Shown: in pieces, positions 1-50,950 of the stretch
Layout of the letters: every line of letters starts with the position of its first letter
Position numbering within the stretch: position 1 is the first letter of the stretch
From: Protula sp. h YS-2021
Taxonomy: Eukaryota > Annelida > Polychaeta > Sabellida > Serpulidae
NCBI GenBank assembly: GCA_949752745.1
Contig: OX457031.1
Location: forward strand, 4,197,915-4,261,914
Reading direction: 5' to 3'
DNA length: 64,000 nucleotides
Translations under genes and position numbers: made by a program
The notes under the pieces: generated by a model
What the model was told of the DNA's origin: nothing
Seen by the model: the letters and a program-made list of their open reading frames with translations, nothing else
Database searches by the model: none

Positions 1-2560
1 AGGAATCATGACAACTTGCAAACCCCCTAGGGATGTTGGTGTGAGGGATGCAGTCCTCTAATATCAAGTTAGAGTTGCATTATTGTTATGCGTGGGTGCC
101 AATAGATAGGGATTTCTGAGACACTATATGGGCACGTCGAATTATAATACTCCTGAGATTAAAAATTGTAATCAATAATTATAAACATGTATGCGCACAT
201 TGTACACCGGTTTGAGCAGGATGTCTGAGAAAGTGGTATATAAAAACTCGCTATAATTATTATTATTTCAGTTAACTGAAATTGATAAAAAAATATTGTT
301 CCTTTTTTCCTGCAAAATAGGTATTTATGGTTTGATAAAGCGCTCATATGACATAATAGTTTATTAATGATTTATACTTTCCTAGTAAGAGGGTTTTGTG
401 TGTTTTATACCTGTTTTATGATTTCCGAGTAATTCTATTTAGTTTATCCGTTAATCCGGCAGGAACAGTTTTTGTAGAATTTTTGCATCTATTCTTGTTC
501 ATATTTTCTTTATTTTAGCGATCCTGCGAGAACTGAAAAGCGAGGTGCTGTATTCTCTCGTGTTCCTTGCCTAATTGAATGTGTCTTTCAATTTGTTAGA
601 AATATTAAATTTTGAATCGCAAAAGGGTGTTGAAGGGAAATGTGTTACTACTATTTTTAGCAACACTGATATCTGCTGGCGGCACACTAGTGCCAGGTCG
701 CTTGTCAAGCAGAACAAAAAACAGGTGAAATACAGTGTGACGTCACTGCCTGTGCGAAATCGTTGCTATGCAACAGCTGAAATCTGGGGAGAATAATTTG
801 GAATTATAAAAACAAAACAGTTCAGTTTTCCTTTCTCAGTAACACCACGCATGATCCTCTGTGTATCGATAATGGTGGCTGTTATGGTGGTGGTGGTGGT
901 TTAGGTAACGGAAGTATAATATTGTGTTCACTCTTTAGTTATAAAAAACTGACTTCACAAAATGTGCGTTTTGCAAAAGACGGGAGGGGGTTGGTAATAG
1001 CATTTCCTTAGTACATACCCCATCTAATGTCTCTCATAAAAGGAAACTATGCGCAAACATACGTGGAAACAAATCCTACCCCATCCCACAAACCCACTGT
1101 CCCCCACAAACAAGCCCTTCCGTGATTATCCTTTCACTCCTGCAAATGTATATGACTATCATAAAACCTACGACATGCAAAACCACCCACTCACACCAAC
1201 GTAATCAACTGTCACCCACAACTCCCACTCACTTCCACAAACCCACTCGCTTCTACAAAACGCACTCGCACCAACACAACACAATCACTCAGTGTTTTCA
1301 CACTATTTCAGTATCGAATGCGTCACACTACGCACTAACGAAATGTGCACTTGACATCGCTTTAACAGTGCAACTTAGCGACGGTAAAAATAAAAAAGTT
1401 GTTTAAAATATTAAATGTATAAAAGAATGTACTTGCAGCAAGATCAGGAACTGAAACAAAACCAAAGTGCTGGTTGGATCTAAACCCTTCCCCCCTCCTC
1501 CCCATAGCCTTGCGCACTCTTCGCACTCGTCTTTCAGGTTCGTACTACCGCTGCTGCAGCCTGAAGGTATTTCTCGGATCAATCTGCCGCCTGTGATATT
1601 TTCATCATTCTAATTTATGGGACTCGATTATTTCTATTAAAAATGGCACTGAATGCTAGAAGCAGGAATATCTCGGACATGCGACGACCTCATTAATAAA
1701 AGTACCACCTTACAACACCCACAATTCCTGTTGTCCTGCACAATATCGTTAAAAATAATGTTCTAATGCCACAAACCTGACAACATGTTTTAATAATTTT
1801 AAAAATATTAAAATCATGACGATATTTCTCCTCAGGAAAACCTAGTTAAATATGCTCCAAGAACATCAAACTCTGATGAGGTCATTGATACTGGAGATGT
1901 ACAGGAGCCTCTTCCGGATCAGCCCATGATTGGCAGAGTGCCTCTGGATCAGGAAATTCCGGATTATTAATCCTAAGTCCTGTCGTTGGTGTTCTCTGTA
2001 GTTTACATACTCAAATATATTAGAATTTTGACCCCTCTTTCCCCCTCCCTGTTCCTTTCGTGTACCATAATCGCATAATAATCATAATAATGAGGCTAAA
2101 AAATTCTGACTTTTTACTGCTAGTTTTAGCGCCAAACCTACAATCGTCACACCCATATGATTCTTTACAATTTTGTATTTAGAAATACCTCATATTTGTA
2201 ATGCTTAATTAAGCAAGTAATATAATCTCTAGCTTGAATAATGCACGCTAAATTAATTGGGATTTTCTTAAGAAAAGTTTAAGCAATTTACAGTCAGACG
2301 AGATTACTAAATCTATAACTATTATGCAAGGTCATCGATAAAAAAGACGAATTTGGAGGAGGGTGTTAGTTTTTGGGATTGGGGAGGGAAGAGCAATAGA
2401 TTTGTGCTTACTTTTATCCCGTAATCGACGATTGCTATGTCAATACATAAAAAATTAACGTAAAATATTTTGCATATTGAATAAGACACAAACAGAGAAA
2501 CTTCAGTGTTAGGAAAATTTATGTTTAAAATTGTACATAAACTTTTCAGAGCCACTTGGC
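1..2560. other. Gene-poor AT-rich stretch
   Basis: No convincing exon, RNA gene or mobile element was seen on either strand. There is a short (GGT)n run near 887-902 and a C-rich patch at about 1,060-1,290 with degenerate CCCACA-type words. Open frames here are short, lack recognisable domains and look like chance. Confidence 0.5.
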
Positions 2561-2564
2561 TGCC

Positions 2565-2715
2565 TGGGGTACTTTTAGAAGGAGCATTTCTCAGCCGGGG
2601 CCAGTTTTCCAACAGCAGACCTCTCAGCATGTTAGGGGTGGCAGTTTTCTAAGGAGGCATTTACCTGCTTTTGCCACCTAGGGCCACTTTTCAAAGGCAC
2701 AGCTTGCTAGTAAAA
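2565..2715 (-). repeat. Degenerate copies of a 30-bp repeat (minus orientation)
   Basis: Read on the minus strand, this stretch repeats words such as CTCCTTnnAAAA and TGGCC at roughly 30-base spacing. It matches the minisatellite at 42.03-42.56 kb and its remnant at 58.54-58.70 kb. About four degenerate units can be recognised. The open frame across it on the minus strand is a by-product of the 30-base period. Confidence 0.55.
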
Positions 2716-3939
2716 AGCTTTTTCTGTATTTGTATATTTTATATTTTTTATACTTTTATATATTCGGAGAAGTCTAAATCTGTTTTTCCTGTATTTTAAA
2801 TTAAAGATATTTTCATCGAATGCGAAATTTTCATTCTTCACATCTTCAGCACTGCAATCTCTCTTTTTTCCTTTATTTATGCTTAATTTTTTTTGTTGAC
2901 CAAAATCACATGTAAATGGCTTCTTTAACTCATGGTCGTACACAGGCACTTGTTGCCACACCGCTTTTATCTCATACTCTGCTTAATACGGAATACTCGG
3001 AAGTCTTTAACTATGGGTCCTGATTTATCAGGGGAAAATTAATTCTCTCTCAGGATATTTTGTATATTTTAGCCTATGTTGGTATATTATGGGGCTGTTA
3101 ATTGTGCAAACAGATTGTTTCTAGCTCTTCTCACAAACAAGACACATCATTTGTTTATTAACGACAATACTTAACTTAATGTTACATTCCCGGAAAGCGG
3201 TTCCAATCAATGAATCAAGGAAGGTTTGTTCCGGCAAACAATGACAACCTTTTGCAGATGTTCAGTCTAATCATGACATCTTATTGCACGAGTTCAATAG
3301 AACTATGATATCTAATTGTACGAGCTTAATCAAATCTATTTGCATGAGTTTAATAGAATCATGAAATCTATGCCCATAATACTAAGCCAAATGCCCTTAG
3401 CCTAAAAATCATGATGTACCCAAGACCCGCTCGTCTGAGATGATGACAGCGATAGTTGTCTATGACTTACTAAAATAACCCTTTAACGTGGATAGCAATT
3501 TTGGAAAATATTAGCTTTTCAAGCAAACGCAGGTACACTAGAAAATATATCCCTTTCGAATACCCACCCAATTAAAGTCCTCATACGAATTTATATGTTT
3601 ATACGAAAGACGAATGAATACTGGAGAATACTGCAATCAGTGAACAAAAGCTATATAGATACCCATGTGGAAAAATGAAGGTGTACAAATTTTGGGTATT
3701 CCTGTTTTTGTTAAATCAATGTAAATTTATTCTGCGGCGACAGCTGCTAGTAATACGTTCCCTCTTTTCTCTGCTTTTTTCCTTTAACAGGAACTGCTAT
3801 GCTAGCTAATGGACCCTTTTGTCCCGGGGAGTAGCAGCCTGTGTGCCACCCAATTTTTTCAATGCATTTGCATCCATCAATATTTAAGGCGAAACAGAGC
3901 GCAAAGGTATTAATGAAACTTTGACGTATTTTCTCAATC

Positions 3940-5540
3940 TGTCGGCTCCACAACAATATTCAAATGTGTTTCTAGCACAAAATAGAACTCTATCTTGAAC
4001 TTTGTATAGAATATCTAACTCAAAGTAATTTTTAGGTTATCTCTATTTGTTTCTATGGAGACATGCTATTTGTGTATATTCCGTAGAGGGAACTGTGAAT
4101 TTTTATATGTGTAAATGGCATAACAATACGAACTTTTTCAACAAAAACAATTTTACGATTTCCCTGAAAACTGACTGGGTTTACGTTTGAGCATGTGCAC
4201 TGCGATATGGTTTATTGTGCTTCATACAAAGGAGCTCCACTCACCTTTTTTGCAAGGAACATACTTATGGTATCAGATCTAAGTTAATTCTCTAAATAGA
4301 AAGAAACCTAGCTACAGTCGTCTTTAAAACTGGTTAAAGTCTGCAGTTGTTCGATAATTTAAGACATAGTTATTTAAGTTAAAGCTGTCTGTAAGTCTTC
4401 ATTCAGTAAATATTTCCCTCAATGAATAAGGAGTATTATTTCTTATTACTTGTTATGTTCAACTGAGTAGCAATGCATCTGTCATTCATCTGTTTATAAC
4501 CCAAATTCAGTAACAGGAACTGCATTTCTAAAATATAACCAGAAATTGGTTATGATGGGTCAGCTAGAAGATTTGGTCTTCCAAAACTTAACCATCAGTA
4601 TTCTCCAAAGCAGTTCACTTGCTATCTTTAACTTCGCTTATAAACAACCCATATGCTAGAAAAAGAAACTTTTGAAATCTAAAATGTCCGTTTTTGTTGC
4701 CATTGCTTATATGAACTGAGAAAAAGAAATTTCTTACATTTCTCTTATCCCTTCTTTCATTTTCACCTGGTTGGTTTTCAGATAAGCCGCAAAATTATTG
4801 TACATTTTTTTCAACGCCAAAAGTCTGATGTAGTTAATCTAAACACATTTTGTACTAAAATTATATCAACTGCTGCTGGAGACAGAAAACATTAAGGATA
4901 CAAGTATTGAAGGTATTAGAACATCTCAGATACTGGTATTTGAAAGGCATGATCAATCTCGAATGTGGTGTCACAGGCCGATTATCATGCAAAAATATGT
5001 ATGACGCGAAGATGATTGGACAGATGCATCCGCATAAAAAAATAAACCTAAAAAAGTAATGAAAACACAATATGGTGCAATCATCGTGAAATAAAATAAA
5101 CATGGACAACTAACGGAAACACAATATGACGCAATCATCGTGAAATAAAATAAATATGGACAACTAACGGAAACGCAATAAGCCGCAATCATCGTAAAAT
5201 AAATCCCCAGGAGCACATTGGAAATTAGTGTAAATGCACTAAACCAGCTTCAACATTTATCTTCTCAAAATAGTCATCATTTATTTAACGTCTACTTTAG
5301 CTGTTTTTGTATTGATGCTGTTTTGTTTTTCATTTTTTATTTTTATCGATTTTCTAGAAATAATGCTCAACTGCCTTTTTATCCAGTGAATGCTTTATTG
5401 AATACTTTAATTTTGTCATATATATGCTGCGTTATATTTACTTGCAAAACCTGAAACGCTTGACAAAAACAACACATTAAATATTCAGTGACAGAGAATT
5501 ACATTCAACAAGCGATCTGTGTTGATGACAGAAAAAATAA
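3940..5540 (-). repeat. Inverted paralog of 61.5-62.65 kb
   Basis: Sequence from about 3,945 to 5,540 reads as the reverse complement of about 62,645 down to 61,500 with roughly 80% identity by eye. Shared words include GGAGCTCCACTC near 4,231, CATATGCTAGAAAAAGAAA near 4,650 and the TGGTGTCACAGG stretch near 4,967. About 330 bases at 4,241-4,580 are extra in this copy, or deleted from the other. No coding sequence is supported. Confidence 0.75.
5071..5205. repeat. 54-bp tandem repeat, about 2.5 copies
   Basis: The word GCAATCATCGT recurs at 5,077, 5,131 and 5,185, giving an exact 54-base period. The paralogous place near 61.87 kb has a single copy, so the array expanded after the duplication. 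The open frame read through it on the minus strand (repeated YFTMIA) is a consequence of the period being a multiple of three. Confidence 0.8.
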
Positions 5541-5554
5541 GAGATGCTCTAAAG

Positions 5555-6480
5555 ACAACGTATATCCTGTCCCCGCATGCACAATTGCTCATTGGTGCCT
5601 CAAAAGCAATAATTTCAAAAAGAAACAGACCACCACTGAATTTTGATTGCTTTTAATTGAGTCAGCTATCAGTAAACTGCACATATATTGTACATCCAGC
5701 TGCTGGGCGGCAAGGGTGGGGAGGTGCACATAAGCAGTAAGAAAAATAAATAAAAAAATAAATATCAACTAAAGGGAGGAGGGTGCGTTTGATTAAATTA
5801 GCAGTAATTAGTAGTAAATGTCATATTACAAGTACGAGCACTAGTAGCCCCGTTCTAGGCGCCTTCAGTTATGACGAACACCACCAACAACCCACACATT
5901 GGATAATTTAACATCATGTAGCTGCTTCCATTGATCTGTAATATGTAATTTTCCATTGTTTTAAAGATAGTTCAAAGGCTGGAAGGTTAAAAGCCAGAAG
6001 ACATGAAAAGAAACACTAGTTCTGCGTTGATCAGCACAGCTGTCCGAATCTACAAATAACTGGTAGTGTAACCAGGCTGTGTAGCAGCTGTGCTAACAAC
6101 CAGACTGTGCAGCAGCTGTGCTAGCAACCAGACTGTGTAGCAGCTGCGCTAACAAGCTTTATTCCCTGGTGATTAAATAACACTGTGCCATTTATCTACT
6201 TCTGTATTGCCAATAGTCTTTACCAACATATCGCTGAATTTATATAGTATAAAGCAGGCTTGACCGACCAAGACGTGTCTGCAATTAGGTTCCCTACTTA
6301 TTAAAACCCTACTTATTCAAGCCATGGGAGATTAAGAGCTTTAAATATTGCTTAAGAATTATATAGTTTCCCATATTATTCATGTTTGTTCGGTGAGGGT
6401 ATTTACTGTATAGCAAAATGAAAGCTGGTCTTCTGTGATTGGCTAACTTACTTTATAAGATGCAAAGTTGATGTACTATA
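5555..6480 (+). repeat. Third copy of the 59.6-64 kb palindrome arm
   Basis: This matches the right arm of the terminal palindrome (about 62,955-64,000 and beyond) in the same orientation. Shared stretches include the block around CAGACCACCAC, TGTACATCCAGC, TGACGAACACCACCAACAA and the end CATGGGAGATTAAGAG. It is clearly more diverged from either arm than the arms are from each other. It ends at about 6,480 in a promoter-like segment shared with the PAN-F5/8C genes. Confidence 0.75.
6019..6160. repeat. Copy-specific insert with 32-bp tandem repeats
   Basis: Three units of about 32 bases built on ACCAGACTGTGTAGCAGCTG lie between the flanks AAACACTAG and TTATTCCCTGGTG. The two palindrome arms join these flanks directly (near 60,150 and 63,430). 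About 140 bases were therefore inserted here or lost from the common ancestor of the arms. Confidence 0.75.
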
Positions 6481-6625
6481 AAATGAAAAAAAAAAACTTT
6501 TCTCATATTTCAGAACGGTGGTGTGATTATAAGAAAATCAACATAAAATAAAATCAACATCACGAGCAATGCATGTTAAAAGAGAACTAAGGAAAGTGAT
6601 GGAGTGATTTAGTAAGTGTTAAACG
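6395..6625 (+). promoter_or_regulatory. Orphan copy of PAN-F5/8C upstream region
   Basis: This stretch matches the DNA just upstream of the PAN exon of the 11.26-kb gene: GCAAAATGAA, a TGATTGGCTAA box, then GTTAAAAGA-AACT-AG-AAAGTGA and AAGTGTT. No PAN exon follows. The same segment lies reverse-complemented at 35.12-35.33 kb upstream of the minus-strand gene and as a fragment at 59.47-59.56 kb. The TGATTGG core is an inverted CCAAT box. Activity is inferred, not shown. Confidence 0.5.
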
Positions 6626-6769
6626 TTTATTTATTTCAATTAAAACGAACTAATTTATACATTTTGTACTACTCATTTCATGGGAAATCTTTTGACATTA
6701 AATTTGATTTTTTTTATTCACTGAAAAAATTGGGTAAAAGTTCGAATTTTCGACTGAACGTATTCGAGG

Positions 6770-7100
6770 TTAAGTTAAGAATATCTTTGACAAGCAGGAA
6801 AAGTTTCAATGAATGTCTGCGAAAGCATACTATTTTTGGGAGCGGTGGTGTGCGTTTGTTTCTTATTTATTTATTTAGTTATTTATTTAGTTATTTACGT
6901 GAAACGATTCTTTGATTTCTTCCTTACACACACGAAAGTAATGCGTTTAAAATCATTAACAAATATTTACTTAAAAGGATTTTTTGTTCTTACACACACG
7001 AAAGTAAAACGTTTAAACTATTAAAAATATGTTAATTATAAACCTGCTACCCACAAGCTCCAGTCACGCGATGCCACCCCTTCACGTACCCTGAAGAGAT
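6770..7100 (-). repeat. Inverted paralog of 57.42-57.70 kb
   Basis: A repeat containing TTTGACAAGCAGGAAAAG, a TTTATTTAGTTATT stretch and two CACACACGAAAGTAA words. The same unit is found reverse-complemented at 57.42-57.70 kb and, in part, at about 41.10-41.40 kb. Frames through the three copies give similar short peptides with unrelated stops, so it is treated as non-coding repeat DNA. Confidence 0.65.
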
Positions 7101-7199
7101 CATATTCCCAAAACATTAAAAGCTCGACAAAGACGATATATTAAATATTCAGTGGCAGAGAATCGCACTCAAATAATGGTTAATTATTGAACAGACGCA

Positions 7200-9300
7200 C
7201 TGAAATCAACATCGACGGCATCACAGACATTCCATATGTAGCAATAGAAGCCTTTTCCAAGAAGTTAAAGCTCTATTCACGTTGCTTAAGCCCAAAAGTC
7301 AAAAGTCATTATGCAAAGTCGTTTTCTTTTGGTCTTATCAATAAGTAAAATAGTTCCTGTTGCCCTAAAAAACGCCATTAGTCCTTAAGAAATATTCTAA
7401 GCATCGTGGAAAGTTACTGAAACATCGATTTTTCCTGCTCTGTATTGGGTGGAAAAATACTTGAATGCACAATATAAAAATTGCATTCGTTGCTGTATTT
7501 AAGAATTTAAGAATGTAATGTCAGAGCTATACGCTTACCTATTATAAGACGCTAGCCTTAGGGCATTTAGTCCATTTAATCCCTCAAGCAAAAGTTGCCC
7601 TTTAGACTGGTTGTCTTATACCTTTTGACTTTTGGCTCAAACAGTGTATTGAATTTGTACAAATATTTTAGCCGCAGTTGTGGCATTTTTTTTCTCGTTT
7701 TTTTTTAGTTTGTCCGTGGAACTAGTCAGAGGCTGTTAGGGCTAGAAAGATGAAATTTGTATATGATAAACTTCAGTAACTATGTCTAGATGATCCTCCT
7801 GTATTTTTTTAATTCACTTAATTTTTCAATTAAAAAACGAAAAAGCAAACTTGTGAAACAGGCGGAAAGAAGCTGAGAACAGTAGTTTAAACTGGCATGA
7901 TATCAGCCTTGGTGTATTGATCGCCCAACTCTCAATGAAAGCCATCACAGCCTACGTGTGCAAGTTTAAGCTTGGGTTTTCCCCAGTTTTTAAAGAGTGA
8001 TTTAATTTGGCTCGCTTACTCAAAGAGGTTGATTAGACGCCTTTTTTAACCATGACCTTAGGGAACGATTGACGTCCTTGGCCATGGTGAATGGTGATAT
8101 ATAAGAGATACCTCGGTGACTTTGACCTCGGCCATGGTGAAAGCCAAAAACCGGAAGTGGACTATTATCTTGAAAACGGTTAGAGGTGGAACGATTTTGA
8201 GCTTATTTTCAACCCGTTGGGCCTAAAAGACAATAAGTAAGAGGTTAAGAGTTCAGACTGGTATTTTTGTCACCACCAAGCGTAATTTTCGCTACTCGTT
8301 GCGAAAACTGTCTAGCTAGTATTTGTTTTTATATTATTTTTATTATTATATCATTATCATTGTCGTTGTGTTTTACAAAAAAACCTATTGCCCCCAAATA
8401 TGAACTTGAATCGTAGCTGTGTTTAATACCTTGAAGGATAGTAAATATATGCAAATTAACCATAAATATTATATCGTTGCTTGTGCCTTTTAAATTAGTA
8501 CTTAACAAAATATTTGTCCATCAGCATGTAGTTGAAAGTAAAGAGCGTGGCTAATTATACAAAATGAATCAATTCTGCTTCTGAATCCCAAATATGAACT
8601 TGAATCGTAGCTGTGTTTAATACCCTGAAGGGTAGTAAATATATGCCAATTAACTATAAATATTTTATCGTTCTTTATGCCTTTTAAATTAGTGCTTAGC
8701 AAAATATTTACCCAATAGCGTGAAGTTTGAAGTAAAGAGCGCGGCTAATTACGTAACATTAAGTAAAATAAGAAGCTATAACCCTTCTCATGCTTTGCAC
8801 CTAAGTAGTGAATAGCAAGAGAAGTAAAATAAGCTATAACCCATGGCAAAAAAATTCCAAGGTGACACACAGCCCGTTATTGTCATATTTTTCTGCTGCA
8901 GTTATCAAAGATGTACCTTTCATTACATATTAAAACTTTGTGGCCAACTTTTTTTTTAAATTTTGCGTAATTTTTGGAGAAATTATGTGTTACGTTTCTC
9001 ATCTCATAGAAAATCTGACGTGCTTCATCACTGAAAATGAAAATATCGCACACTATACACTTTTTAAAACGAACACTCTAAAGACTCGGTGGGTGAATAC
9101 TGGATAATTCTTCTGCCGCAACCATTTGGCGTGAACACACTTTCTTAAGACGTGGAAAACTAAAATCACTCCAAAAGGGCCCAGTGAGAATATTATGAAT
9201 AATTCCAAACGTTGCTGGACTATAACAGACTTTGTGCTTTAATTTTTATGGTCATCACAACATGACTTATACAGGCTTTTGAATGATAAATACAGGAGAC
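7200..9300 (-). repeat. Inverted paralog of 53.0-54.9 kb
   Basis: The stretch reads as the reverse complement of about 54.9 down to 53.0 kb. Clear landmarks are GGGCTAGAAAGATGAAATTT near 7,740, GGAGGATC-type sequence at 7,792, CCTTGGCCATGG near 8,079, TTTTCGCTACTCG near 8,289 and ACTCGGTGGGTGAATACTGG near 9,084. With 3.94-7.10 kb it completes an inverted duplication of the right end of the window, with 55.0-57.4 kb missing. Confidence 0.75.
8394..8760. repeat. 194-bp tandem duplication
   Basis: CCAAATATGAACTTGAATCG occurs at about 8,394 and again at about 8,588, followed by nearly the same 190 bases each time (TAGCTGTGTTTAATACC, GTAAATATATGC, TTAAATTAGT). The paralog at 53.4-53.62 kb has a single copy. 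The period is about 194 bases. Confidence 0.75.
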
Positions 9301-9794
9301 CTTGAAAGTTTGCTAATAAGCAGAACACATCTGTTTCCTAAAGTTAATAGCAAGCCATGTTCTTTCTCTATCAAAGCTTCATATTTACAAGACAAATCTC
9401 AGATTAAGCGAAAAGGAACAAAAGAAGTTCAACTATTTTAAGCAGCTGTTTGAATTTTTTAAAGTATTTTTATGAGAAGTATTTAATATCTCATATCCTA
9501 AAATAAATCGCAAATAAAAAGACAACAGATAAAATTGCAATGGGCATAGAACTTTCTATGTAGTTTGAAAAATAAATTACTACTAGTCTTATTGATGGCT
9601 ATCATTGACGGTATTCCACTACATCAACAACATTTCTAAGAACCACTTTTATGTGAGAAGCCGAGCGTTTAAGAGAAAAAGGCATAACGTCAAAATTTAT
9701 ATCAGTAATAATTTCAGTTCAAACAATATTTGTATCAATCAAATATTATGTTTTTTTCTTATTTTAATAGAATTAGCTTTTCATAGCTCTCCCT

Positions 9795-9797
<3 letters not shown>

Positions 9798-9881
<84 letters not shown>

Positions 9882-9966
9882 CCGTTTTCTATTTCGTTAT
9901 CTCTCTCTTCCCCACTCTTTCACTCTCTCTCTCTATTTCTCTACCCTCTCTCTCTCTCTCTCTCTG
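9798..9966. repeat. (TC)n microsatellite
   Basis: Pure TC dinucleotides run from 9,798 to about 9,866, then pass into TTTC and interrupted TC to about 9,966. A frame through it encodes only Leu-Ser runs. Confidence 0.95.
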
Positions 9967-11569: not shown

Positions 11570-11779
11570 GTAATTATGCATTTCAAATAGTCCGAGTACC
11601 TTAAAGTGCTTTAATTTCTACACCGAAAACTAATTTGAAATATATATTTGGTGTTTGACAAAAATGCTAAGATGTAAGAAAATAGTTTTGCTCTACTTTA
11701 AAAGAAAATAACTTGTCAAGACATTTCTTTTGAATACTAAATTATTGCTTTACGCTTATGTTTTGTTTTGTTCATTTAG

Positions 11780-12303
11780 ATATAGAAGTTAAAGCATGTC
11801 CCTCTCAAATACCCTTGCTTGTAGCGCTTAATGACAGCGGCTTAGTAGGCCCTGGATGCCTTGGAAGCTTTCGTTGTGAAGATACAGTACTTAATTCATC
11901 ACGACACTATTATCGCGCCTGGATTAATCAAGTTGGTCAGTTTATTCAGGCAGACTTCATACATATGCAACAAATAGAAAAAGTGGCCATTCAAGGGAAA
12001 AGATATCATAAGTATGTTTCAAGCTTTCTCTTCGCCTACAGCCAGACACCGGTCGACTACCAGTTCGTGCGTCATGCTAATGGAAGTAACTTCATCTTCG
12101 TCGGAAACAGTGATTCTGACACCGTTGTTGAAAACACATTCGACACGCCTCTGACAGCTCGCTCTGTGCGGCTCTACCCACAAACTTGGCATGGCGGAAT
12201 TCATCTTAGATGGGAAGTGTGCGGATGTAAGGCAGGTGAATGTGCCCTTTCTGTATTTATCCGGTTTTGTGTAAGAAGAGGGTTTTATGAGAAAGCTTCC
12301 TGA
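11780..12303 (+). CDS. Secreted PAN/F5-8C protein, exon 2 (F5/8 type C domain)
   Basis: The acceptor TTCATTTAG|AT restores the frame from exon 1 (Gly/Asp codon split in phase 1). The exon encodes one F5/8 type C (discoidin) domain, about residues 109-256, recognisable by GQFIQADF, EKVAIQG, FLFAYS, FVGNSDSDTVV and the C-terminal SVRLYPQTWHGG...WEVCGC signature. A potential donor lies at 12,235 (GGCAG|GTGAAT), at the place where the paralogous exons have GGCAG|GTAAGT. The only candidate next exon (13,972) is truncated, so reading through to the stop at 12,303 adds about 22 residues and may be the real end. F5/8C domains usually act outside the cell in binding to glycans, lipids or collagen. Expression data would decide the 3' end. 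Confidence 0.78.
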
Positions 12304-33745: not shown

Positions 33746-34104
33746 AGAAAGACAGGGGTCATTTGCACAAGGATGCAGGTGGAGAAGTGCGCTGCGCATG
33801 GTAAATGAATAACAAAGATCACCCTAAAAGATTACATTTTATATAACATGAAATAATTTAAAAGAAGGCATGCTTTATGTATCATGCTGAATTTATACAC
33901 ATTTCAGTGGAAACTGAAAAGAAAAATATGTCTATTATTTAAAAAATGTCAACTACTTTATTGAGATTAAAACACCTTAACACTTTATATAAGACCTTTT
34001 TGGTATATCCTCAAATAAATTGAAAAAATGTGTCATTGCACACACCAAGTGTGTGGATAGAGACTTTTCTCACATCGGTATATTTAAAATAAAGCCAGAC
34101 ATAC

Positions 34105-34551
34105 CTGCCTCACACCCGTACACTTCCCATCTGAGCCTCATATCACCGTGCCAAGTCCGTGGATAGAGACGCACCGATTTAGCTCTAAGAGGCGTGTCAA
34201 AAACGTTCTCAACAACTGTGTCTTCATCGTTGTTTCCGACAAAGATGACGTCACTCCCGTTCGCATGACGCACAAACTGGTAGTGAAAATCTACCTGGCT
34301 GTAGGCGAACATAAAGCTTGTGGTGTACGAACTCCATCCGTCGCCTTGAATGGCCACTTTCTCTAATTGTTGCATATGTATGAATTCGGCCTGGAAAAAT
34401 GCGCCAACTTCCCTAAACCGGTTGGATTTCCAGTATCCTGAGGAATTAAGAAGTGTATGCTCACAAGGAAAACTTCCAATACATTTAGGCCCTGCTAAGC
34501 CGCTATCATTAAGCGTTTGGATCAAGGGTATTTGAGAGCTGCATGGTGTAT
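34105..34551 (-). CDS. Secreted PAN/F5-8C protein, exon 2 (first F5/8C domain)
   Basis: Minus-strand exon bounded by TTGTTTTAG|AT and GGCAG|GTATGT, 447 bases, phase 1 on both sides. It encodes DTPCSSQIPLIQTLNDSGLA then GPKCIGSFPCEHTLLNSS, and the domain core GAFFQAEF, EKVAIQGDGW, FMFAYSQVDFHYQFVRHA, FVGNNDEDTVV and SVRLYPRTWHGDMRLRWEVY-GC. The intron starts with the same bases as the intron after exon 3 (both read through to ILNIPM and a stop), so exon and adjoining intron were duplicated as a unit. Confidence 0.88.
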
Positions 34552-34779
34552 CTAAAACAATAAAGCAATTAATCTATAAAACACTAAAAGAAATATTTTA
34601 GAGTTTATAAAGATTGTTTTAACAAGTGAATTCTTTCATAATTTTGTGCGTAGGCAGACCAATTTTCATACATCTTAGCATATTTTTTATAATATCACAA
34701 GTATATATCTCAAACTAATTTTCAGTGAAGAAAATAAAACATTTTTACGGTACTCGAATTGTTTGAAATGCATAATTAC

Positions 34780-43710: not shown

Positions 43711-43716
43711 GATTGG
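43711..43716 (+). repeat. Left target site duplication, GATTGG
   Basis: GATTGG directly precedes the element's first base and is repeated exactly after its last base. Confidence 0.93.
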
Positions 43717-45111
43717 AGTAGTAGGAAAACGACAGTTCTACCACAGCCCCCCGCCCCCTAGGGGTCGACTGTCGACGGTAAGAAAATCTGAGGCCCCCCC
43801 CCTAGGGGTCGACTGTCACCGGTAAGAAAATCTGAGGACCCCCTCAGGGGTCGACTGTCACCGGTAAGAAAATCTGAGGACCCCCCTCCCCCCAGGGTTA
43901 AGAAAATTTTGCGATTTCAGCATAGTTATATGTTTCAGACGATTCTGAACAACTTCGGTTTTGATGACCCCCCCCCCCCCCCCCTAGGGCTAAGAAAATT
44001 TTGCGATTTCAGCATAGTTATCCGTTTCAGATCATTCTGCGCAAATTTGGTTTTCATGACCCCCCTCTTACTTAAAATTGCGATAACTTTCGTTATACTT
44101 GACCGATTTGAATGAAAATTTCACCATTTGATTCAGTGTTATGTAAAGTTTTGTTATAAAATATTCATGGGCTTCTTGCGCAGCTGGCTGTATGCATATT
44201 TGTAGCATTCTGCCATTTCAACTTAAAACTGGGATAACTTTTGTTATACTTGACCGATTTACCTGGAAATTTCGCTGTTTGATTCAGTTTTCTATCTAGT
44301 TTTGACATAGTCATGGGCTATTTGCACAGGTGGCTGTATGCATATTTAGTACATGCCGCCATTTTAACTTAAAAGTGAGATAACTTTCGTTATACTTGAC
44401 CGATTTGAATGAAAATTTCACCATTTGATTCAGTTTACAGTGGTTCTGTGTTATTTGGCGGATGAATACCATATGGCGTATGAATACCATCGTCAAGCTT
44501 CACCGCTAGATGTCTCTGCTGTGCATCAATTTTGAACGAGCTTTGGTAAGTGACACATCATATACCATCAAAGTTGTATAAATGAGCAATAAATTCTGCT
44601 GAGTCAGCAATTTTAACGAGTTTGAATAAGTTACACGCCATATTTTGATTACATGTAAGTAGCATAAAAGCATGAGTGAAACATACATTTCAACTAGTGA
44701 TAAATTCTGCTGAGTCCACAAGTTACACACCATATACCATCAAAGTAGTATAAATGCATGTGTGACGAGAAAACTGCACAATGTCAACTTTAACAAATTT
44801 TGTTTTTTGACAACATATGATGTATAAAATAAGTTTGAACATTTTGTCATGTTGTACTAGGGTAAAAATCAGGGTTCTAAACCAACTTTAACAAATTTCG
44901 TTTTTCACGTTTCAAACGATTCTACCACTTGGTTGGTTGGTTGATTGTTGGAAAATGGGAAGTGAAAATGTGGATAGTTATGTAGGAAAACTGCGCCCAT
45001 TCAAACATGTGTTCGAATGGCAAGCCCATTTAAAAGACGTGTTCGAATGGCAAGCCAATTCAAAACACGTGTTCGAATAATTTTCGGAAGATATTAGGTC
45101 GTGGTATTGTT

Positions 45112-45222
45112 CAACAAATTGTTCAACATGTTCAACATGTTCAACATGTTCAACATGTTCAACATGTTCAACATGTTCAACATGTTCAACAAGTTGTTCA
45201 ACATGTTGTTGTTCAACAAGTT
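45112..45222. repeat. 9-bp repeat (TTCAACATG) in left arm
   Basis: Eight or more head-to-tail TTCAACATG units with AAGTTG variants, just upstream of the TATA box. The right arm has fewer units (about 47,300-47,385). GTTGAACATGTTCAAC is self-complementary. Confidence 0.9.
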
Positions 45223-45226
45223 GTTG

Positions 45227-45235
45227 TATATAAAG
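45227..45235 (+). promoter_or_regulatory. TATA box in the left arm, driving the PC4 gene
   Basis: TATATAAAG lies 53 bases before the ATG at 45,288 (start of the short leader frame) and 213 bases before the PC4 ATG. The same sequence is found in mirror position in the right arm. Confidence 0.6.
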
Positions 45236-45287
45236 CTATGTTTAAAGACTTTCTCATCATTTGAATAGTGTAGGTTGAACCGAAAGG

Positions 45288-45347
45288 ATGTATAAATGCA
45301 ACATTTGTTCAAAATCTTACAACTGGCCACAAAGGCAAACGTGGTAA
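45288..45347 (+). pseudogene. Truncated copy of the zinc-finger gene start in the left arm
   Basis: Because the arm extends into the zinc-finger gene, this arm also starts MYKCNICSKSYNWPQ; it then leaves the repeat, reads RQTW and stops. It would be a 19-codon leader frame on the PC4 transcript. A GTAAAG donor-like word at 45,346 and an AAG at 45,440 could be joined in frame with the PC4 protein, but the acceptor lacks a good pyrimidine tract. Confidence 0.6.
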
Positions 45348-45447
45348 AGTTATTTGTAAACATATTAAGTAAACTCACTATAAAGTATCAAAGGCAGCCG
45401 CCCTCAGACCTAACACACATTCTGTATCAAGATACTGAAGTGTGAAC

Positions 45448-45930
45448 ATGTCTGCAGTGAGCGAGCCTACAGCAAAGTCTAAGGCAATGCCCATGGTAAA
45501 GTCTAAGGCGAAGTCATGTCAGCAGCGTCAAAAGCGACCACATCCTAGAAAGATAAAAAGAGATGAGTTACCATCTATGACGCCGCCGTGTAAAAAGCGA
45601 AAAATTAAGACAGAGCCTAAAATGAAGCGAGAACCAGAGTATAAAGCTTCTACCACCATGAAGAATATGAGTGTAGACAATTTACCGGTTATGATACCTA
45701 TTAATGGAGAAATATATATTAAATTGGCGAAATATCAACAGAAAGTGATGGTTAACATTCGTGAATATATTACGGATCATACATCTGGGAGGTTACATCC
45801 TACCAAGAAGGGAATTTTGTTGTCATTGAACGATTGGCACATGCTGAAGAAGCAAATGACGTCAGTGGATCTCAGGCTTCAGCAAATGGATTTGTATAAA
45901 TGTAGTGACTGTCAGAAGATCGTTGAGTAG
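45448..45930 (+). CDS. PC4 (p15-like) coactivator-domain protein of the element
   Basis: Intronless gene for 160 residues; the ATG at 45,448 is the first in frame (a GTG at 45,442 precedes it). Residues 8-66 are basic and probably nuclear-targeting (QKRPHPRKIKR, PPCKKRKIK), with two SUMO-type sites (IKTE, MKRE). Residues 86-140 match the PC4 single-stranded-DNA-binding fold: IYIKLAKYQQKVMVNIREY, a short loop, GRLHPTKKGILLSLNDW, HMLKKQM. A C-terminal CSDC pair (152, 155) could bind metal. PC4 family members bind single-stranded DNA and act in transcription and repair. Here it faces the zinc-finger gene tail to tail inside a mobile element, with an AATAAA at 46,258. Function in transposition, silencing or expression is unknown. 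Confidence 0.85.
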   Translation: MSAVSEPTAKSKAMPMVKSKAKSCQQRQKRPHPRKIKRDELPSMTPPCKKRKIKTEPKMKREPEYKASTTMKNMSVDNLPVMIPINGEIYIKLAKYQQKVMVNIREYITDHTSGRLHPTKKGILLSLNDWHMLKKQMTSVDLRLQQMDLYKCSDCQKIVE

Positions 45931-46257
45931 ACAGCGAGATGACTGTATACATTTTAACTGCATGACGAGCTTAGTGAATGCTATGATTTCATCACCCTCA
46001 GTGTAGAAGATTTGAGCGAAGGTTTTGAAGCTTGACAAGAACTTGAAACTTACCTTTGACTCATATGGACATATACATTTGATATGTAGTTCAAATCAAA
46101 TTGTCTTCATATGTAGGCTATGAAATTAACATGATCTATGTTCATGTGAAGTCACTTGTTATAAATGTTAAGTTTTTGTGAATCTGCACATGTATTAACA
46201 TAATATGTATTTGAAATAGTTTTGTTTGTATCATAATTGTACATATTTGTGATATTC

Positions 46258-46263
46258 AATAAA
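46258..46263 (+). terminator. Poly(A) signal of the PC4 gene
   Basis: AATAAA 328 bases after the PC4 stop codon, facing the opposite-strand signal 30 bases further on. Confidence 0.7.
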
Positions 46264-46287
46264 AACACATATGATGCTTTTCAACTT

Positions 46288-46293
46288 TTTATT
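46288..46293 (-). terminator. Poly(A) signal of the zinc-finger gene
   Basis: AATAAA on the minus strand, 216 bases after the zinc-finger stop codon. With the signal at 46,258 it makes the two 3' ends meet or overlap. Confidence 0.65.
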
Positions 46294-46508
46294 TTTCTCA
46301 TAACATACTTGAATATAATACATAATAATACAAAATTAACTATAATACCTAATATATGATATATGGTTTACGGGTCAATTACAACCACGTCAGGAACCTT
46401 GCGACTTTATATGTTGCAAAGCAAGACATATACTAATACACAACGCTTAAGCGAATAAAATATTACAACATTTATAAAGTCTTTATCAGAAAGTTTAGTC
46501 AAATAAGT

Positions 46509-47240
46509 CTATTTTTCTTCATCTGTTTCACTCTGTTCACTCTCCATGTTACTTTCTTCATCACTGCTGTCATCCTCCTCTTCCTTATCTAGTAGCTCTT
46601 CAAAGAATGCATTGTTTTTCCTTATAGCCGCCTTTAGTGCCTTTGAATACTTGTAATGTTTTTCATCCACAAAGTAATTAAAGTCCTTTAAAATCTTTTG
46701 ATAATGTTGGCTTTGTTCTAGACGCTGGGTATATTTGAATAGTCTCATAAACAGTTGTTTAAGTCCATGTTTATAAATGGGTCGAAGGTCATAACTTGCT
46801 ATTTCACGCGGATCTTCATGTCCTTGTTCTTCATATTCTGAAACCTTTTCTTGAAATTTGTCATCATAGTCATCGTAGACTTCTTGAACCATATCATACC
46901 AAACAGAGTCTATTTCTGACTCACTTTCAGAGTCTGTTTCTGACTCACTTTCAGAACTCCTGTCATCAGCATCCTCACCACACTGCTCCATATGTTTGAG
47001 CAAAGCTTCTTCGCTGTTGTATAATGCACCACATTCTGTACAAGCATGTGCATTCTTTTCAGCCATCTTAACGCTTTCACTTTCCATAGAAGACTCATCG
47101 AAAGTTTCCGTGAAAGGTAGTTTTACAGGGTTTTCCATATCCGATTCTTCATCCACTTCTGACGTGTGAGCAACCTTTAAGTGTCTTTTAAGACTTTGTG
47201 GCCAATTGTAAGATTTTGAACAAATGTTGCATTTATACAT
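46509..47240 (-). CDS. C2H2/C2HC zinc-finger protein of the element with an unknown acidic-helical domain
   Basis: Intronless minus-strand gene, 243 residues, ATG at 47,240 preceded by the arm's TATA box. A C2H2 finger occupies residues 4-25 (C4, C7, H20, H25) and begins only three residues after the start. A second finger is of C2HC type (C67, C70, H83, C87). Residues 88-113 are an acidic serine-rich linker (SESETDSESESEID). Residues 114-222 form a charged, probably helical domain with aromatic positions (VWYDMVQEVYDDYDDKF, LKQLFMRLFKYTQRLEQSQH, FNYFVDEKHYKYSKALKAAI) that I do not recognise. The C-terminal tail is strongly acidic. The two fingers suggest DNA or RNA binding; the element ends are an obvious candidate target, but that is inference. 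Confidence 0.88.
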   Translation of the reverse strand: MYKCNICSKSYNWPQSLKRHLKVAHTSEVDEESDMENPVKLPFTETFDESSMESESVKMAEKNAHACTECGALYNSEEALLKHMEQCGEDADDRSSESESETDSESESEIDSVWYDMVQEVYDDYDDKFQEKVSEYEEQGHEDPREIASYDLRPIYKHGLKQLFMRLFKYTQRLEQSQHYQKILKDFNYFVDEKHYKYSKALKAAIRKNNAFFEELLDKEEEDDSSDEESNMESEQSETDEEK

Positions 47241-48726
47241 CCTTTCGGTTCAACCTACACTATTCAAATGATGAGAAAGTCTTTAAACATAGCTTTATAT
47301 ACAACAACTTGTTGAACAACAACATGTTGAACATGTTGAACATGTTGAACATGTTGAACATGTTGAACAATTTGTTGAACAATACCACGACCTAATATCT
47401 TCCAAAAATTATTCGAACACGTGTTTTGAATGGGCTTGCCATTCGAACACATGTTTGAATGGGCGCAGTTTTCCTACATAACTATCCACATTTTCACTTC
47501 CCATTTTCCAACAATCAACCAACCAACCAAGTGGTAGAATCGTTTGAAACGTGAAAAACGAAATTTGTTAAAGTTGGTTTAGAACCCTGATTTTTACCCT
47601 AGTACAACATGACAAAATGTTCAAACTTATTTTATACATCATATGTTGTCAAAAAACAAAATTTGTTAAAGTTGACATTGTGCAGTTTTCTCGTCACACA
47701 TGCATTTATACTACACTGATGGTATATGGTGTGTAACTTGTGGACTCAGCAGAATTTATCACTGGTTGAAATGTATGTTTCACTCATGCTTTTATGCTAC
47801 TTACATGTAATCAAAATATGGTGTGTAACTTATTCAAACTCGTTAAAATTGCTGACTCAGCAGAATTTATTGCTCATTTATACAACTTTGATGGTATATG
47901 ATGTGTCACTTACCAAAGCTCGTTCAAAATTGATGCACAGCAGAGACATCTAGCGGTGAAGCTTGACGATGGTATTCATACGCCAAATGGTATTCATCCG
48001 CCAAATAACACAGAACCACTGTAAACTGAATCAAATGGTGAAATTTTCATTCAAATCGGTCAAGTATAACGAAAGTTATCTCACTTTTAAGTTAAAATGG
48101 CGGCATGTACTAAATATGCATACAACCACCTGTGCAAATAGCCCATGACTATGTCAAAACTAGATAGAAAACTGAATCAAACAGCGAAATTTCCAGGTAA
48201 ATCGGTCAAGTATAACAAAAGTTATCCCAGTTTTAAGTTGAAATGGCAGAATGCTACAAATATGCATACAACCAGCTAGGCAAGTAGCCCATGAATATTT
48301 TATAACAAAACTGAATCAAATGGTGAAATTTTCATTCAAATCGGTCAAGTATAACGAAAGTTATCGCAATTTTAAGTAAGGGGGGGGGGTCATGAAAACC
48401 AAATTTGCGCAGAATGATCTGAAACGGATAACTATGCTGAAATCGCAAAATTTTCTTAGCCCTAGGGGGGGGGGGGGTCATCAAAACCGAAGTTGTTCAG
48501 AAACGTCTGAAACATATAACTATGCTGAAATCGCAAAATTTCCTTAGCCCTGGGGGGGGGGTGGGGGTCCTCAGATTTTTTTACCGGTGACAGTCGACCC
48601 CTGGGGGGGTCCTCAGATTTTCTTATCGGTGACAGTCGACCCCTAGGGGGGGGGCTCAGATTTTCTTACCGTCGACAGTCGACCCCTAGGGTGGGGCTGT
48701 GGTAGATCTGTCGTTTTCCTACTACT
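47194..48726 (-). repeat. Right inverted arm
   Basis: Reverse complement of 43,717-45,334, shorter by about 85 bases owing mainly to fewer TTCAACATG units and shorter homopolymer runs. Its inner end lies inside codons 15-16 of the zinc-finger gene, so that gene's start and promoter are part of the arm. Confidence 0.9.
47293..47301 (-). promoter_or_regulatory. TATA box in the right arm, driving the zinc-finger gene
   Basis: TATATAAAG on the minus strand, 53 bases before the zinc-finger ATG, mirror image of 45,227-45,235. Confidence 0.65.
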
Positions 48727-48732
48727 GATTGG
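48727..48732 (+). repeat. Right target site duplication, GATTGG
   Basis: Exact copy of 43,711-43,716, directly after the element's terminal ACTACT. Confidence 0.93.
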
Positions 48733-48884
48733 GGTCATAGAAAAACCTTTTTCAACCAACATTGAGGAAATTCACTGTCAATATGCTTGGAGAATCAAGT
48801 TTTATAAATTTAATGGCGACTATTATAAAAACAGGAAATTCACGAAAAAAATCATGAGCTTGAAAGTAAAAACAATTAAGAGTG

Positions 48885-50950
48885 CCAGAGATGGTCATGG
48901 TCAGGGATGGTCATGGTCAGAGATGGTCATGGTCAGGAATGGTCATGTCAGGGATGGTCATGGTTTGGGATCGTCATGGCCAGGGATGGTCATGGATAGG
49001 GGCGTGCATGGTCAGGGATGGTGATGGCTAGGGATGGTCATGGTCAGTGATGGTCATGGTCCGTTATGGTCATGGTCTGGGATGGTCATTGTCAGGAATG
49101 CTTATGGTCAAGGATGGTCATGGTCAGGGATGGTCATGGTTTTGGATTGTCATTGTTAGAGATGGTCATGGTCAGAGATGCTCAATTTCTGGCATGGACA
49201 TGGTCCGAAATGGTCATCGTCACGGATGTTCATTTTTTTGGGATGGTCATGGTCCGGGAGGGTCATGTTGTCGGATGGCCATGGCTAGGAATGGTCATGG
49301 TCAGGAATGCTCAAGGTCAGGTATGGTCTTTGTCAGGTACTGTCATGGTCATGGTCTGGGATGGTCATGGTCAGGGATGGTCATGGCCAGGGATGTTTTA
49401 GGTCAGGGATGGTCACGGTCATGGATGATCATGGGCAGGGATGGTCATGGTGAGGGATACTCATGGTCCTATATGGTCATGGTCAGGAATGGTCAAGGTC
49501 AGGAATGTTCATGGTCAGGGATGGTCGAGGTCAGGTATGGTCATGCTCAGGTATGGTTATGGTCAGGCATGGTCATTGCCAAGGATGGGATAGTCAATAT
49601 CAAGGGACGGTCATGATCCGGGATGGTAGTGGTCAGTAATGATCATGGTCAGGGATGGTCATGGTCAGAGTTGGTCATGATTAGCGATGGTCATGATCAT
49701 GGATGGTTACGGTCAGGGATGGACATTGACAGAGATGGTCATGGTCAGGTGTGGTCATGATTAGCGATGGTCATGATCATGGATGGTTACGATCAGGGAT
49801 GGACATTGCCAGAGATGGTCATGGTCAGGTGTGGTCACGTCAATGATGGTCATATCCATGGGAGGTTATGGTCAAGGATGGTCATGGTCAGAGATGGTGA
49901 GGGTCAGGGATGGTCATGGTCAGGTATGGTCGGGTCAGGGATAGTCATGGCCATGGGTGGTTATGGTCAGGGATGGTCATGCTCAAAAATGGTGAGGGTC
50001 AGGGATGGTCACGGCCAGGGATGGTGATGGTCAGGGATGGTCATTGTCAGGGTGATCGTTGTTAGGGATGTTCATGGACAGGGATGGTCATGGTCAGGGA
50101 TGGTGAGGTTAAGGGATGGTCATGGTCATGGGTGGTTATGGTAAGGGATGGTCATACACAAAAATGGTGAGGTCAGGGTTGGTCACGGTCAGGGATGGTG
50201 ATGGTCAGGGATGGTCATGGTCAGGGTGATCATAGTTAGGGATGTTCATGGACAGGGATGGTCATGGTCAGGGATGGTGAGGGTAAGGGATGGCCATGGT
50301 CAGGTATGGTCAGGTCACGGATGGTAAGGGCCATGGGTGGTTATGGTCAGGGATGGTCATGGTCAGGGATGATCATGGTCAGGGATGGTCATGGTCAGGG
50401 ATGGTCATGGTCAGGGATGGTCATGGTCAGGGATGATCATGGTCAGGGATGGTCATGGTCAGGGATGGTGAGGGTCAGGGTTGGTCATGATCAGGTATGG
50501 TCAGTTCAGGGATGGTCATGGCCATGGGTGGTTATGGTCAGAGATGGTCATGGTCATTGATGGTGAATGTCGGGGATGGTCATGGTCAGGGAGGGTCAAT
50601 ATCATGGGACGGTCATGATCCGGGATGGCCGTGGTCAGTAATGATCATGGTCAGTTATGTCATGGTCATCGATTTTCATGGTTAGGGAAGGTCGTGGTCT
50701 GAGATGGTCATGGTCGGGGATGGTCATGGTCAGGGATGGTCATGGTCAGGGATGGTCATGGTGAGGGATGGTTATGGTCAGGGATGGTCATTGCCTCGGA
50801 TGGTCATGGTCAGGTATTTTCAGGTCAGGGATGGTCATAACCATGGGTGGTTATTGTCAGGAGTGGTCATGGTCAAGGATGGTGAGGGTCAGGGATGGTC
50901 ATGGCCAGGGATGATCATGGTCAGGGATGGTCGCATCGAGCATAGAGACC
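48885..50950. repeat. 16-bp minisatellite (ATGGTCATGGTCAGGG)
   Basis: More than 120 units of ATGGTCATGGTCAGGG with many point variants. Since 16 is not a multiple of three, all three plus frames cycle through the same 16-residue peptide (MVMVRDGHGQGWSWSG) and remain open in places for up to 189 codons. Multi-unit blocks recur, for instance the stretch with GATCATGGATGGTTACG at 49,693 and 49,773, and the CCATGGGTGGTTATGG blocks. The array begins about 160 bases after the 5-kb element. Confidence 0.93.

Follow-up and report, generated by a model that had tools for sequence, protein, structure and literature searches.

We describe here a 5,010-bp mobile element in the genome of the serpulid annelid Protula sp. 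h YS-2021 that is very probably a non-autonomous but gene-bearing Polinton/Maverick copy, a "satellite Polinton", and not a gene-less relic. The element lies in a stretch of 64,000 nucleotides (hereafter the window; assembly GCA_949752745.1, contig OX457031.1, C8:4197915-4261914 of the 863-Mb genome) and carries two convergent genes, one for a PC4-fold protein and one for a C2H2 zinc-finger protein. Its 20-bp tip, its 6-bp target-site duplication and its arm sequence are common to a 15.3-kb element that bears polymerase and integrase genes, it recurs at many loci, and its zinc-finger gene is under purifying selection. Judging from these sequences, mobilisation in trans by full-length Polintons is most likely. 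Polintons as such are already known; what appears to be new is a non-autonomous one that retains genes. A Polinton-type element with PC4 and a zinc finger was not found in the open-licence literature; Repbase and subscription papers lay outside this search, and an entry may already exist there.

Organization of the element

The insertion is defined by the following features, given with their positions in the window:

43711..43716, target-site duplication GATTGG, left, exact match to the right copy
43717..48726, whole element, 5,010 bp, AGTAGT...ACTACT = (AGT)2...(ACT)2
43717..43735, + strand, left tip AGTAGTAGGAAAACGACAG, 19 bp
43717..45334, + strand, left inverted arm, 1,618 bp, closing with a copy of the first 15 zinc-finger codons (from 45288)
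45448..45930, + strand, PC4-fold gene, 160 aa, Pfam PF02229 (9.9e-12)
46509..47240, - strand, C2H2 zinc-finger gene, 243 aa, two finger matches
47194..48726, - strand, right inverted arm, 1,533 bp, including the start of the zinc-finger gene
48708..48726, - strand, right tip, AGTAGTAGGAAAACGACAG inverted
48727..48732, target-site duplication GATTGG, right, exact match to the left copy

An earlier note, made from the sequence alone, had described an exact GATTGG duplication, AGT...ACT termini, nearly identical arms of about 1.6 kb, and two convergent genes with nothing else, and each of these points holds. Identical 6-mers at the spacing of the GATTGG pair occur at 46 of 58,978 window positions. 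The 19-bp tip, allowing up to three mismatches, is found in the window at the two element ends only (shuffles average 0.00). The arms are 98.6% identical without gaps (1,506 matches, 22 mismatches); the eight indels between them, 95 nt in total, all fall inside tandem arrays. A DNA transposon of another kind with 6-bp duplications, IS3EU/GingerRoot, would account for the duplication length. In the excerpt of the IS481EU paper, which also gives 6 bp for Polintons, IS3EU termini are TA..TA, occasionally TG..CA (PMC10045372), whereas the element has AGT..ACT; we regard this assignment as extremely improbable.

The PC4 assignment rests on a Pfam score of 44.6 bits (cut-off 25) and a match to the solved PC4/p15 chain 4usg_A (6.3e-7). 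The window protein is without 28 residues near the N terminus; the product is 188 aa long in 11 of the 14 full-length PC4 frames found in the genome. In two PC4 relatives, P0003 and P0010, the N-terminal region bears a weak resemblance to CARD (0.0022 and 0.0058, both under the Pfam cut-off). The zinc-finger protein scores 31.6 bits for zf-C2H2 (cut-off 25.2) and 33.1 for zf-C2H2_6 (cut-off 25), and shows acidic stretches on visual inspection as well as a C-terminal domain predicted to be helical. In the structural model, residues 111-210 are predicted to be helical, with block means of the predicted local distance difference test (pLDDT) of 81-97 and an overall predicted template modelling score (pTM) of 0.39. 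Among solved structures, matches were to the finger part only, with none for residues 111-210, and a fold search with the model listed finger structures, none with E <= 0.001. Relatives of the protein form 31 clusters, partial ones included, in a set of 5.8 billion proteins, and 22 of the 31 are of at least 196 aa. Prokaryote contigs yielded no zinc-finger relative. Viral contigs, searched with the exact tip, the window proteins and profiles, P0044 and a degenerate pattern derived from P0044, yielded no relative besides L001, a contig of phage-like character containing a PC4-like stretch, which was set aside as unrelated.

Shuffling the element 500 times never gave a frame of 243 codons, and in 7 of the shuffles the longest one reached 160 codons. 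Stop-to-stop frames of 55 aa or more from the left arm and the middle, 17 in all, were checked. The 15 besides the two genes gave no Pfam family over the cut-off and a few weak matches below it, and no polymerase B, RVE integrase, capsid, ATPase or protease gene was found among the 17. Because the start codon of the zinc-finger gene falls 47 bp within the right arm, the TATATAAAG motif and the first 15 codons occur in the left arm as well; this 15-codon piece is a separate match in 10 of 20 loci. Inspecting the left arm, we also considered whether this start might be spliced to PC4 there, but did not retain the idea.

Copies across the genome

A search of the genome with the left arm gave at least 155 matches at many loci, a lower bound because 40 of 7,590 candidates were scored. 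Twenty-five loci were examined (the window element and 24 others), at three of which (L033, L034, L037) just one end was resolved. As the earlier note had proposed, other copies were sought and checked for 6-bp duplications: copies with conserved genes are many, and the duplication is exact at 18 of the 25 loci, with no other duplication length seen. The duplications differ among copies and 17 are independent, since L012 and L014 have the same 60-bp flank and thus represent one insertion; in L013 and L020 the duplication agrees at 5 of 6 bases. AGTAGT stands at both ends in 19 of the 22 loci with both ends located, the exceptions being L016 and L028, with one changed tip each, and L030, where one AGT unit is altered at one of the two ends.

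Copies with both ends located measure 2.1-8.9 kb. Counting as full-length an ATG frame of 140-200 aa (PC4) or 220-275 aa (zinc finger), we found full-length PC4 at 14 loci, full-length zinc finger at 11 and both at 8 of the 25. Neither gene was matched at five (L013, L020, L028, L029, L037), four of them resolved at 2.1-3.5 kb; at the remaining loci with gene matches one or both genes are partial or interrupted.

Some members depart from the common layout. L030 and L032 are longer (7,694 and 8,930 bp) and have different outer tips with exact 6-bp duplications. L025 (G000:C1:6494000-6501300) carries two zinc-finger frames, of 244 and 300 aa, that face inward; it has no PC4, and its outer arms are identical over 800 bp. 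In L031 (G000:C5:85545000-85554900; 816-4577 and 6163-9901) the same outward host flank adjoins both tips, and the host sequence beyond the element is inverted-repeated at 98.5%, which may reflect an inverted duplication or an assembly hairpin.

A Polinton with the same tips

Allowing one mismatch at most, we found the tip pattern AGTAGTAGGRAAAYGRSMGT 802 times forward and 793 times in reverse in the genome (1,595 in total; reversed control 0 + 0). Pairing was analysed for the first 100 of these matches, all on contig C1, and comprised 32 facing pairs of less than 30 kb versus 2 adjacent back-to-back pairs. Among these matches, four facing pairs are smaller than 4 kb, 12 are of 5.0-6.6 kb, one is of 9.7 kb, 13 are of 14.6-17.3 kb and two are of 21-22.5 kb.

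One of the larger pairs (C1:4455898-4471199, 15,302 bp) has the exact 20-bp tip of the window element and the duplication AACAGG/AACAGG. Its right arm is 80% identical to the window arm over 857 bp. It encodes an RVE integrase (rve, 4.4e-11) and a polymerase, the first part of which matches DNA_pol_B_2 (1.1e-7) and the second no family at 0.01. After the polymerase follows a PC4 gene (Pfam PC4 6.7e-9, 35.6 bits, cut-off 25); the match was obtained with the longer frame, a frame with a truncated start giving none. A full-length Polinton with matching tips, which the earlier note had suggested looking for, thus exists in this one pair, read in pieces. Together with the many copies, its Polinton genes bear out the suggestion that the window element is a non-autonomous derivative keeping two nucleic-acid-binding genes.

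The alternative put forward in the same note was a separate family with its own integration machinery, that is, a small autonomous transposon whose own proteins perform transposition. Two conserved genes in many copies are what such a family would show. However, neither protein matched any transposase or integrase family or structure, the tips and the duplication length are those of the RVE-integrase-bearing 15.3-kb element, and 5 of the 25 loci have neither gene, two of these with exact duplications. We consider an autonomous family very improbable.

Matches to protein-primed polymerase B (pPolB) occur at many further loci, and at 12 or more of these the match lies in a 1,351-aa open frame. 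The 1,351-aa group (e.g. C11:15395373 and C3:71943239) possibly represents recently active Polintons.

Selection on the genes and likeness of the arms

The ratio of nonsynonymous to synonymous differences per site (pN/pS) was pooled over full-length frames, with a 95% range from a bootstrap over codons; the pairs are mutually dependent, and both L012 and L014 were retained although they duplicate one another. For the zinc finger it is 0.389 (0.269-0.595; 11 copies, 55 pairs), and all 51 pairs with a synonymous divergence (dS) above 0.02 fall below 1: this gene is under purifying selection. For PC4 it is 0.604 (0.334-1.110; 91 pairs), with 68 of 79 pairs with dS > 0.02 below 1, which suggests purifying selection. 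The supposition of the earlier note that two intact frames suggest that the proteins matter, for which it proposed a dN/dS comparison among copies, thus stands for the zinc finger, constrained across copies and clearly below 1; PC4 is not significantly below 1.

The note had also called the element young. In 13 of the 17 copies that could be assessed (of 20; L013, L015 and L032 are omitted for an end-gap artefact with L030 as best match), the outer 800 bp of the two arms are closer to each other than to the best-matching other copy. The two arms of one copy thus seem to be kept alike, and for that reason arm identity is no proof of youth.

These data also bear on another explanation, a plain internal-deletion derivative, in which a full Polinton lost its core and two leftover genes remain as passengers. 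In vertebrate Mavericks, according to the excerpt (PMC8097293), the core is flanked by accessory regions and the modules point inward, and a central deletion could give the present layout; moreover, the 15.3-kb element has a PC4 gene, and loci with neither gene exist, four resolved at 2.1-3.5 kb. The constraint on the zinc finger over 11 copies (upper bound 0.60) argues against passengers, as do the recurrence of both genes in many copies with different duplications and the zinc-finger relatives in 31 protein clusters, 22 of at least 196 aa. The window PC4 is also far from that of the partner although one arm is 80% alike: the two are 45% identical over 67 residues (41% by multiple alignment), whereas the window PC4 domain is 45-62% identical to each of 15 metagenome PC4 proteins. 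Being nearer to these than to the partner's, it indicates that the window element is no recent deletion product of the partner. On balance, a mere deletion derivative appears unlikely.

Alternatively, the genes may be retained for the host, in antiviral or genome defence of a virophage-like kind, and not for the element. The CARD-like N terminus of P0003, weak as it is, and the existence of a BIR-PC4 protein type in hard clam and mussels, in the excerpt (PMC7831173), point in this direction. Constraint across mobile copies fits selection at the level of the element better, and we hold use by the host to be improbable.

Several observations weigh against a gene-bearing satellite mobilised by Polintons of the partner's kind. 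L036 and L031 have no matching duplications (in L036, perhaps a recombinant, 3 of 6 bases agree and the tips are unlike). Two of the five gene-less loci have exact duplications, so the genes are dispensable in cis, and the upper bound for PC4 (1.110) leaves its selection short of significance. On the side of the partner, one 15-kb pair was read, over about 10.4 of its 15.3 kb (4461701-4466599 lies outside the pieces). Its left arm matches that of the window element in the outer 0.4 kb only, and its own two arms agree at 80% across the outer 206 bp, with patchy matches further in, which counts against arms always staying alike. Its polymerase is in two frames split by a stop, and the copy may therefore be inactive. 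No zinc finger like that of the window element was found in the pieces read (best E 7.0), and the PC4 proteins are only 41-45% identical. Finally, the eight polymerase matches on C1 (four loci) lie in none of the 32 tip pairs among the C1 matches analysed; those loci thus have other tips or none.

A possible mode of propagation

Further elements of the arms and the gene ends are relevant to how the satellite could be propagated and expressed:

43750..43886, subterminal tandem array, left, 42-44-bp unit, about 3 copies
44070..44437, 146-bp-unit tandem array, left, 2.5 copies, mirror at 48023-48377
45120..45207, 9-bp-unit array (TGTTCAACA), adjoining the left TATA motif upstream, mirror at 47321-47369
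45227..45235, + strand, TATATAAAG, putative core promoter in the left arm, motif only
46258..46263, + strand, AATAAA, putative poly(A) signal of PC4, motif only
46288..46293, - strand, AATAAA, putative poly(A) signal of the zinc-finger gene, motif only
47293..47301, - strand, TATATAAAG, putative core promoter of the zinc-finger gene in the right arm, motif only
48563..48697, subterminal tandem array, right, 42-43-bp unit, about 3 copies

The integrase and the protein-primed polymerase of full-length Polintons would act in trans on the element ends. In adenovirus, protein priming involves a trinucleotide jump-back, and the AGT-AGT end would fit such a step. The long arms may allow a displaced strand to anneal into a panhandle, the copying of which would keep both arms alike. 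The TATA motif in each arm suggests that the same signal could drive the zinc-finger gene on the right and PC4 on the left, both genes running inward to convergent putative poly(A) sites. The most likely role of the PC4 protein is to coat displaced single strands or to help transcription. The zinc-finger protein most likely binds repeats in the arms, whether those of the 9-bp array next to the promoters or those of the subterminal array, and such binding would mark the DNA of the element for replication or regulate both promoters.

A possible but rather doubtful extension is that the copies form a long-lived lineage of Polinton satellites with their own PC4 single-strand binder and an arm-repeat-recognising zinc finger of an undescribed helical family. 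Such a lineage would compete for or restrain replication of the helper, as an animal-genome counterpart of the virophage-helper relationship.

Relation to known systems

In vertebrate Mavericks (AGT)2//(ACT)2 is the commonest end motif, duplications are of 6 bp, and two modules generally point inward, with accessory regions flanking the core, according to the excerpt (PMC8097293). The window element agrees with them in its 6-bp duplication, its ends, its inverted arms and inward genes on both strands. It differs in size (5.0 kb versus 12.7-24.6 kb), in its arms of 1.5-1.6 kb (46-1,447 bp are reported in the same excerpt), and in having no detected polymerase, integrase, ATPase, protease or capsid gene. 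The 15.3-kb partner is alike in its 20-bp tips, 6-bp duplication, related arms and PC4 gene, but has pPolB, RVE integrase and less similar arms.

To our knowledge, miniature inverted-repeat transposable elements (MITEs), deletion derivatives and non-autonomous DNA transposons in general are usually gene-less. The present family would resemble MITEs and deletion derivatives in being mobilised in trans, but keeps two genes, one of them constrained. By analogy, it may be likened to virophages and satellite viruses, smaller genomes that depend on the machinery of a larger relative; unlike these, it has no capsid gene.

That a Polinton derivative present in many copies keeps a gene under purifying selection suggests that there are satellites which bring in functions of their own. 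Whether virus-like Polintons are in turn subject to parasites or regulators within animal genomes can now be tested. PC4-type proteins are further linked to Polintons, since the polymerase gene of the 15.3-kb partner is followed by one for PC4.

Other features of the window

Directly to the right of the insertion (48880-50932) lies a long degenerate tandem array with a GGTCATGGTCAGGGAT-like unit. Frames with an F5/8 type C (discoidin) domain at 11734-12300 and 34073-34573 apparently belong to a repeated host gene family.

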